A stretch of DNA of 53,390 bases, taken from Cyanobium sp. CZS48M (lineage in GTDB: Bacteria > Cyanobacteriota > Cyanobacteriia > PCC-6307 > Cyanobiaceae). The stretch covers positions 1-53,390 of the forward strand of contig JAUCZK010000018.1 in assembly GCA_030373145.1 (NCBI GenBank). The letters are read 5' to 3'. Numbering within the stretch: the stretch's first letter is position 1; each line of letters starts with the position of its first letter. The translations under genes and the position numbers were made by a program. This document shows, piece after piece, positions 18,419-20,869 of the stretch. The notes below the pieces were generated by a model. That model was not told the DNA's origin. It saw only the letters and a list, made by a program, of their open reading frames with translations, and ran no database searches.

Positions 18419-19594
18419 ATGCCCGCTCCGTTCACCTGCATCGCCGTGCTGCCGCCGGGGCTTGAGGAGCTGGGTGCCACCGAACTGGCCGAACTCGGGG
18501 CTGAGGCGGTGCAGCCCCTGCGGCGGGCGGTGGCGTTCCGCTGCGATCTCGCCTGCTTCTACCGGCTGCACCTGCGGGCCCTGCTGCCCTTCCGCATCCT
18601 GCGGCAGCTGGGCCGTTTCCCCTGCGATGGCCCACAGGATCTCTATGCCGGTGTCCAGGCAGCCGCCGACTGGGACCACTGGCTGCCCCCCCACCGCAGT
18701 TTCCGGGTGGAGGTGAGCGGCACGGCCCCCGGGCTGACCCACAGCCACTTCACCGCCCTGCAGGTGAAGAACGCCCTGGTGGATCAGCAGCGGCAGCGCT
18801 GGGGGGAGCGTTCCTCGATCGACCTCGACGCCCCCGACCTCTGCCTCCACCTGCACCTGGGCCGGGCCAGTGGCGGCGCCCGCGGCCAGCGCGCCGGCAA
18901 CGAGGCCGTGCTCAGCCTGGATGGCTCGAGCGGCAGCCTGCACCGGCGCGGCTGGCGGGCGGCCATGGGTCTGGCGCCGCTGAAGGAGAACCTGGCGGCC
19001 GGCCTGATCCGTGCCACCGGCTGGGATGGGCACGTGCCCCTGGCCGACCCCCTCTGCGGCTCCGGCACCCTGTTGATCGAGGCGGCCTGCGCTGAGCTGG
19101 GACGCACCCCTGCTCGGACCCTGGCCCTGCAGCGCTGGGCCGATTTCAATGCGGAGCTGTGGAAGCGGGAATCGGCGGCAGCCGCCGGCCTGGCCCGCCA
19201 GGAGCTGGCGGACGGCAGCCCCCTGTCGCCGATCGTTGGCATGGAGCGGGATCCGGCGGTGCTGGAGCAGGCCCAGGCGAACGCGACGGCCGCCGGTGTG
19301 GCCCCGTGGCTGGAGTTGCAGAGCGGCGACTGCCGCGACTTCGTGCCGCCCCAGACTCCGGGAGTGATCGTCTGCAATCCGCCCTATGGCGAGCGCCTCG
19401 GCGCCGGCGAAGACCTGGAGCAGCTCTATGCCGATCTCGGCGCCATGGTCAAGCAGCGTTGCTCCGGCTGGACCCTCTGGCTGTTGAGCGGCAACCCTGA
19501 ACTGACGGGCGCCCTGCGGATGAAAGCCAGCCGGCGCCTCCCAGTGAGCAATGGCGGCATAGACTGCAGATGGCTGCGTTATGAGATCCGCTGA
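18419..19594 (+). CDS. THUMP-domain RNA guanine-N2 methyltransferase (RlmL N-domain/YpsC type)
   Basis: A 391-residue protein with an N-terminal ferredoxin-like/THUMP region (CIAVLPPGLEELGATELAEL; FRVEVSGTAPGLTHSHF) and a class I SAM-dependent methyltransferase domain with ADPLCGSGTLLIEAA (SAM binding) and the catalytic NPPYGERLG. This fits the COG0116 family that methylates a guanine of 23S rRNA (m2G2445-type). It lacks the second methyltransferase domain of E. coli RlmL, as usual for cyanobacteria. Transcribed divergently from ssrA. Confidence 0.92.
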   Translation: MPAPFTCIAVLPPGLEELGATELAELGAEAVQPLRRAVAFRCDLACFYRLHLRALLPFRILRQLGRFPCDGPQDLYAGVQAAADWDHWLPPHRSFRVEVSGTAPGLTHSHFTALQVKNALVDQQRQRWGERSSIDLDAPDLCLHLHLGRASGGARGQRAGNEAVLSLDGSSGSLHRRGWRAAMGLAPLKENLAAGLIRATGWDGHVPLADPLCGSGTLLIEAACAELGRTPARTLALQRWADFNAELWKRESAAAAGLARQELADGSPLSPIVGMERDPAVLEQAQANATAAGVAPWLELQSGDCRDFVPPQTPGVIVCNPPYGERLGAGEDLEQLYADLGAMVKQRCSGWTLWLLSGNPELTGALRMKASRRLPVSNGGIDCRWLRYEIR

Positions 19595-19665
19595 AATCCG
19601 GTGGCCAGCTTTCATCCCCTCGCAATCGCCCCTGAGGTGATGCGATCCGATCATCCCTAGAGGGG

Positions 19666-19989
19666 ATGACCATTCATGCTGTCAGTGTCAGCGGCCGTAA
19701 GAACACCCCAGCTGAGGCCCTGCGCCAGTCCAAGCAGGACATGGCCGTGATGTTCAACCGGGATCATCCCGACGCAGCGCTGATCGGCCTAGGGCGGATC
19801 AATGGGATCGGCTGGCTGCAGGAGCTGTTCGAGGAGGTCCTCATCCCAGCCGTCGTGGCTGATGAGGTGCTCTCAGAGGGCCTGGCCTGCTTCAGGGCCG
19901 CCGCCACGGCGGACTGCAGCCATGAGGCTGTCGTCATTAGCGGCAAGCAGCCCAACGACCTGCCGGAGTTCCGCAGGATCAACAGCTGA
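19666..19989 (+). pseudogene. Hybrid reading frame: antitoxin N-terminus joined to PIN-toxin (DUF3368/VapC-like) pieces
   Basis: The 107-residue frame has two unrelated-looking parts. Residues 1-42 (MTIHAVSVSGRKNTPAEALR, then QSKQDMAVMFNRDHPDAALI) resemble a Phd/YefM-type antitoxin N-terminus. From about residue 43, RINGIGWLQELFEEVLIPAV with VADEV resembles the start of a DUF3368 PIN-like toxin, and the end (AVVISGKQPNDLPEFRRINS) looks like a VapC C-terminus. This suggests a toxin-antitoxin pair collapsed by deletion, probably at the similar stretches IGLG/xVLA. The PIN acidic residues cannot all be placed, so it is unlikely to be an active toxin. It could alternatively be one intact gene of an unknown family. 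Confidence 0.5.
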
Positions 19990-20095: not shown

Positions 20096-20869
20096 TCAAT
20101 CCTCCGCTTCGGCGTTCAACTCCGGTTCCGGCAACGGGGTGGTGATCGCGCAGTACAGCTCCACCAGCCCCTGCACCAACGCCTCCGGCACGGGGATCGG
20201 CCCCAGGCGCTCCAGCACCCGGGCGGGTGGATCTGGCGGCAGGGGATCGGGGATCACCAGGCGCTCACCGGGCCGGGCCACCAGCCCCTGGGGCCACCAT
20301 GGGGGCAGCCCCTCTTCAGGCCCAGCGGCCGCCCCGGCCTTCACAGTCGGCCGCAGCCGTTGCATCAGCGCCTCCCGCTCCCGCCCGCGCCAGGCCAGAA
20401 GTTGCCAGGGGTCATCATCGAGCCGCTGGGCGAACACGTGCAGGCTGGCGGCGATGTGCTTACAGGGCACCTCCCAGTCGGGGCAGCTGCACTCGGCCTC
20501 AAGGTCACTCCAGCGCGCGGGGAACAGATCCACCCCCGCCTGGTGGAAGCCTGTTTCGAGATCCTCGGGCACCTCGCCGGCCAGCAGCTTCGCCGCCCAG
20601 CCCAGCCGCTGACGGAACACCGCCTCGATCGCCGCCCACTCTTCGTCTTCAGGCAGCTCCGTTTCCACCATGACCTTGTAGGGGGTGCGCCGAGAACCCT
20701 GCACCCGGGCCGCCAGCCTCCCTGGCCCCACCTCCAGGCTCAGCACCTGGCCACTTCTGGCGTAGCGCCGGCCCCGCTCCATCCGGCCGCCCAGCCCGTA
20801 GCCCTCGAGCACGTCGATGAACCGCTGCGACCACCAGCGCCGGGCCGGGGGCTTTTGGCGCGGGCTCAT
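20096..20869 (-). CDS. SWIM zinc-finger protein
   Basis: A 257-residue protein whose central motif CSCPDWEVPCKHIAA (Cys127, Cys129, Cys136, His138) is a SWIM zinc finger (CxCxnCxH). The rest is helical, with Trp/Pro-rich segments (LPPWWPQGL) and no enzymatic motif. SWIM proteins are often encoded with SNF2-family ATPases and are thought to guide them to nucleic acid or partners. Here ATG 20869 overlaps the stop of the SNF2 gene by four bases, so the two are almost certainly made together. The first 130 residues are conserved-looking, the tail is Pro/Glu-rich. Confidence 0.9.
   Translation of the reverse strand: MSPRQKPPARRWWSQRFIDVLEGYGLGGRMERGRRYARSGQVLSLEVGPGRLAARVQGSRRTPYKVMVETELPEDEEWAAIEAVFRQRLGWAAKLLAGEVPEDLETGFHQAGVDLFPARWSDLEAECSCPDWEVPCKHIAASLHVFAQRLDDDPWQLLAWRGREREALMQRLRPTVKAGAAAGPEEGLPPWWPQGLVARPGERLVIPDPLPPDPPARVLERLGPIPVPEALVQGLVELYCAITTPLPEPELNAEAED

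Follow-up and report, generated by a model that had tools for sequence, protein, structure and literature searches.

The frame of 107 amino acids at positions 19666-19989 of the window, by which we mean the whole stretch of 53,390 nucleotides analyzed here from Cyanobium sp. CZS48M, is very probably the remnant of a decayed chromosomal Phd/UPF0175-DUF3368 toxin-antitoxin (TA) module that was eroded, together with a piece of an IS1595-family insertion sequence (IS), by successive deletions, and it is probably a pseudogene. Judged by what its parts match, the frame is a real chimera, and one of three pieces rather than two. The features involved are the following.

18419-19594, + strand: gene for an RlmL-like rRNA methyltransferase, left flank and anchor of the site (PF01170, PF02926, PF22020)
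19652-19668, no strand: imperfect inverted repeat CATCCC-N5-GGGATG, 5' of the antitoxin start, of the type found before intact antitoxin genes
19666-19779, + strand: residues 1-38, the Phd-like N-terminus from an antitoxin of the Phd/UPF0175 type (DNA identity to G001:C25; Pfam matches of the intact relative)
19781-19792, + strand: join 1, TGATCGGCCTAG, in LIGL codons common to antitoxin and toxin, codon-phased in both parents
19783-19872, + strand: N-terminal piece of a DUF3368 toxin (DNA identity to G001:C25; Pfam match of the intact relative)
19868-19872, + strand: join 2, TGCTC, a 270-bp deletion found in the window only (comparison with RedBA-s)
19868-19984, + strand: internal fragment of a transposase of the IS1595 family, truncated on either side (frame matches, PF12762, NF033547)
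20096-20869, - strand: gene for a SWIM zinc-finger protein, right flank and anchor of the site (PF04434)

Make-up of the frame

The frame runs on the + strand from ATG to TGA. Residues 1-38 correspond to the Phd-like N-terminus of the antitoxin, residues ~39-69 to the N-terminal part of a DUF3368 (PIN-type) toxin and residues ~68-106 to an internal part of an IS1595 transposase. That it is open is in itself uninformative, since in this window, with a G+C content of 68%, 221 of 1817 stop-to-stop stretches reach at least 117 codons, the length of the open stretch that holds the frame. As a query against its own genome and 59 relatives, the 107-residue sequence found matches in 11 of the 60 genomes (its own among them) at E ≤0.1, and these were split over three kinds of gene: short frames, matched by residues 1-60 at most and commonly by 3-53 or 3-44; frames directly behind these, matched by residues 37 onward; and long frames in many copies, matched by residues 64-106. 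No family spanning the whole frame was found in Pfam, NCBIfam or PHROGs, and no unbroken full-length counterpart outside the window in the 59 relatives, 387 other genomes of the class, plasmids or phages. A true conserved small gene family over all 107 residues, the one finding that the sequence-only reading had named as fatal to its proposal, is therefore barely conceivable, each third of the frame aligning to a different gene. That proposal, of an antitoxin-like start running into a PIN-toxin-like piece, stands in that both parts are present and are joined at a shared LIGL stretch; a make-up of antitoxin and toxin only is, however, ruled out by the match of residues 64-106 to IS1595 frames, the last ~39 residues being transposase.

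The region 19645-19790 is identical at 120 of 146 bases to the antitoxin region of G001:C25, whose intact antitoxin matches PF03683 (UPF0175) at 2e-12 and PF02604 (PhdYeFM) at 8.3e-7, the latter barely short of the cut-off. The UPF0175 match of this intact relative covers residues 51-106, past the part retained in the window, and the 107-residue frame itself hits nothing in Pfam. The frame's ATG lies at 19666, the customary antitoxin start codon at 19672-19674 being ATT here. This lost start codon was considered as proof of gene death and rejected, as in G026, too, the gene encodes Ile at this place and has an in-frame ATG two codons before it. In its antitoxin piece the window departs at positions 11, 14, 27, 29, and 30 from residues that are identical in all 16 intact proteins; A27, M29, and F30 are common to the window and Synechococcus sp. 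RedBA-s (G006), whereas R11 and T14, replacing Leu and Asn within the conserved SGLKNNP stretch, occur in the window only. The inverted repeat at 19652-19668 overlaps the ATG and is retained in both the window and RedBA-s; with CATCCC-N4-GGGATG standing directly 5' of the antitoxin gene in nine of the 16 intact loci, it is presumably a relic of the antitoxin operator.

In the toxin piece, 76 of the 90 bases at 19783-19872 are identical to the intact G001:C25 toxin, which matches PF11848 (DUF3368) at 2.1e-8. Among solved structures, at E up to 1, the toxin matched a PPR protein (5iww, 0.039) and VapC15 (4chg, 0.084) and no other. In alignment A1, made of ten of the 16 toxin frames behind intact antitoxins plus a distant toxin of the window's own genome, D8, E40, and D78 do not vary and position 100 hardly does (numbering of L075, which itself has Glu at 100). 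We take D8, E40, D78, and D100 to be the PIN catalytic residues. The frame keeps the equivalent of E40 only, within ADEVL; the piece begins 3' of the toxin's first conserved Asp, and join 1 sits past D8, which thus falls outside it.

Residues 64/65-106 match open frames of 337 and 327 codons in the window's own genome and of up to 339 codons in relatives. Two of the relatives' long frames were scanned for PF12762 (DDE_Tnp_IS1595) and both contain it; one of these was also scanned for NF033547, which it contains too. Among 72,556 plasmid records a single one was matched, by residues 68-107, and it carries an annotated IS1595 transposase; phages gave no match to the 107-residue frame. The RedBA-s version of this piece is identical at 172 of 228 bases to an IS copy in G031, with homology ending at GATCAACA. 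In the window the piece amounts to ~39 codons, the DDE domain is incomplete and homology ends on both sides.

Intact relatives, the shared site and the joins

The sequence-only reading held that intact two-gene relatives with the same antitoxin and toxin halves would prove the fusion, and such relatives exist. The antitoxin is matched at 1e-6 in 27 of 201 genomes of the family (its own included), and of the 21 loci examined, 16 have a complete antitoxin followed by a toxin frame. The antitoxin gene overlaps the toxin gene in the intact relatives, for example in G001:C25, whereas the window has antitoxin N-terminus, toxin and transposase pieces in one fused frame. The toxin frame is seemingly unaltered in 14 of the 16 loci, the exceptions being L088, with a shortened toxin (139 residues vs. 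163-173), and L079, with a locally altered one. The remaining five loci comprise L090, which is cut by a contig end and was omitted from A2, and the relics L091 (on contig C2 of the window's own genome), L103, L104, and L099 (RedBA-s). The antitoxin and toxin pieces share ancestry with the UPF0175/DUF3368 type II TA module.

The module occurs in other states as well. The window's own genome has a second, separately decayed TA copy at G000:C2:160639-160984 (L002, L091, L107), in which the antitoxin has an internal deletion and the toxin is a stump of 22 residues, as well as a distant, intact-looking Phd/UPF0175-DUF3368 pair at G000:C20:78666-79558 (L005, L006, L105; 36 and 44% identity). In a different genus, a frameshifted copy at G112:C1:263353-263705 (L103) shares its genome with the complete antitoxin copy L079. 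At L088 (G170:C428) a whole antitoxin stands beside a toxin frame kept open despite its internal deletion.

Of the window and nine relatives read, only the window, RedBA-s and G001 have the SWIM gene directly past the rlmL region; in G002 it lies 2.3 kb off, and six other relatives have none within the ~3-kb stretch read. RedBA-s carries a longer relic at this site, between its rlmL-like and SWIM genes, with the antitoxin::toxin join seen in the window, a frameshift caused by a 4-bp duplication, a toxin without its middle and a longer IS1595 piece; the window's 270-bp deletion is absent from it. In its toxin ~190 bp are missing between GGGnTGG copies, as placed by the coordinates of two alignments. 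At the same site, G001:C9 holds an antitoxin remnant alone. Upstream of the antitoxin start, the window has two TCATCCC copies 39 bp apart (19612-19657), and the 39 bp between them are gone from RedBA-s.

Deletion by short homology, as the sequence-only reading had suggested for the join, is supported by the LIGL codon repeat at join 1 and by TGCTC at join 2. In each of the 15 pairs measured (out of the 16, L088 with its shortened toxin being excluded), 251 bp separate the antitoxin copy of the LIGL stretch from the toxin copy. Although this distance is not divisible by three, the two copies are in the same codon phase, so that a deletion between them alone yields an in-frame fusion. At the join-1 site the 15 intact pairs show exact runs of 2-7 bases; the run reaches 12 bp for the G001:C9 relic antitoxin against the G002 toxin, which is a cross-genome pairing and not the site's parental pair. 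At join 2 the exact run is 5 bp, and the TGCTC copies lie codon-phased in GAG-GTG-CTC and GAG-CTG-CTC (Glu-x-Leu). With random breakpoints in intact antitoxin-toxin pairs, runs of at least 5 arose in 1.0% of draws and of at least 12 in 0.002%; this control stays within antitoxin-toxin pairs, whereas join 2 links toxin to transposase. The frame stayed open because the repeats at both joins are codon-phased alike on either side. The LIGL join was also considered as a recurrent hotspot and rejected: it is present in L099 but absent from L091, L103, and L104.

The comparisons thus show three losses. Against intact pairs, some 250 bp are gone between the LIGL-coding repeats of both genes, which fuses the antitoxin N-terminus to the toxin; the relic of RedBA-s is without the toxin's middle (~190 bp, between GGGnTGG repeats) and continues into a truncated IS1595 piece; and from the window another 270 bp, bounded by TGCTC repeats, are absent. 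Slippage or short-homology deletion is the probable mechanism, and the older steps probably took place in this order.

Selection and possible roles

Between the window and RedBA-s the frame differs by six synonymous and nine non-synonymous substitutions over 316 of the 321 bases of its coding sequence (the five next to the 4-bp indel were omitted), and the neighboring rlmL by 24 and eight in 1173 bases. The split differs between the two (Fisher p = 0.027), while no difference from the neutral expectation was detected for the frame (p = 0.14), a weak test with only 15 differences, in which the synonymous share of 6/15 is nominally over the neutral 24%. These few differences carry no sign of purifying selection. 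What remains is most likely a pseudogene with no function of its own; against this stand the open frame, its ATG and the presumed operator, with which translation may still occur.

Several roles can nonetheless be imagined for such a frame. The codon-phased LIGL repeat might mechanically favor an in-frame antitoxin::toxin fusion during decay, the product temporarily keeping a DNA-binding role, which we regard as very unlikely. Phd-type N-termini bind operators, and with the inverted repeat kept in the window and in RedBA-s, the Phd-like part might still bind the CATCCC/GGGATG repeat and repress its own or related promoters. Such a remaining repressor is, however, highly improbable given the two window-only changes in SGLKNNP, a site with no intact toxin left to regulate and the loss in RedBA-s of the 39 bp directly upstream. 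The sequence-only reading had suggested that the frame, if expressed, would be an antitoxin domain tethered to a broken nuclease and might act as an anti-addiction decoy, in which case the chimera would be made and its antitoxin part would neutralize related toxins of invading plasmids. Although the N-terminal part of the antitoxin and an open frame are both present, and passages of PMC2654758 document the idea that chromosomal antitoxins can serve in anti-addiction, this proposal is not supported and we consider it extremely improbable: the C-terminal UPF0175 half is missing, five residues that never vary among the 16 intact antitoxins are substituted, the same-site relative in RedBA-s is frameshifted, no unbroken full-length counterpart was found in the 59 relatives or the 387 other genomes of the class, and purifying selection is not seen in the few differences available. 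At E ≤0.1 the window's own genome has, beyond the chimera, only two toxin-like places, the 44%-identical toxin on C20 and the 22-residue stump on C2. What speaks for a decoy or a repressor comes down to the open frame and the repeat retained at the presumed operator.

Comparison with known systems

Passages of Makarova et al. (PMC6929052) describe a COG2886 (UPF0175)-PIN composite with a DUF3368 toxin, state that in Geobacillus the PIN partner is a DUF3368 protein and term a DUF3368/COG2405 protein PIN-like, and in a portion of PMC2701414 UPF0175 (COG2886)-PIN pairs are described mainly from archaea and cyanobacteria. The intact relatives are like these COG2886 (UPF0175)-PIN (COG2405/DUF3368) type II modules, so far as those passages depict them, with a UPF0175 antitoxin gene overlapping a DUF3368 gene, whereas the window has fragments only, and the UPF0175 part of the intact relatives also bears a Phd-like N-terminus. 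The C-terminal third of the frame matches the DDE domain of IS1595-family transposases, but with only ~39 codons, cut on both sides, it is not a mobile element.

The frame is an instance of the known, ordinary decay of chromosomal TA modules, with a well-resolved history. It adds no new function; its value is as a worked example of how successive deletions wear down a TA module along with part of an IS, and as a caution that known domains joined in an open frame in high-GC DNA need not mean a gene. The decay of chromosomal TA systems, insertion sequences included, and the anti-addiction model are both reviewed in sections of PMC2654758. The decaying ccdO157 and the hok-sok copies hit by insertion sequences that appear there are likewise TA systems wrecked by mutation, rearrangement or IS; the present case differs in family and host, and in that the wreck leaves one open three-part frame.
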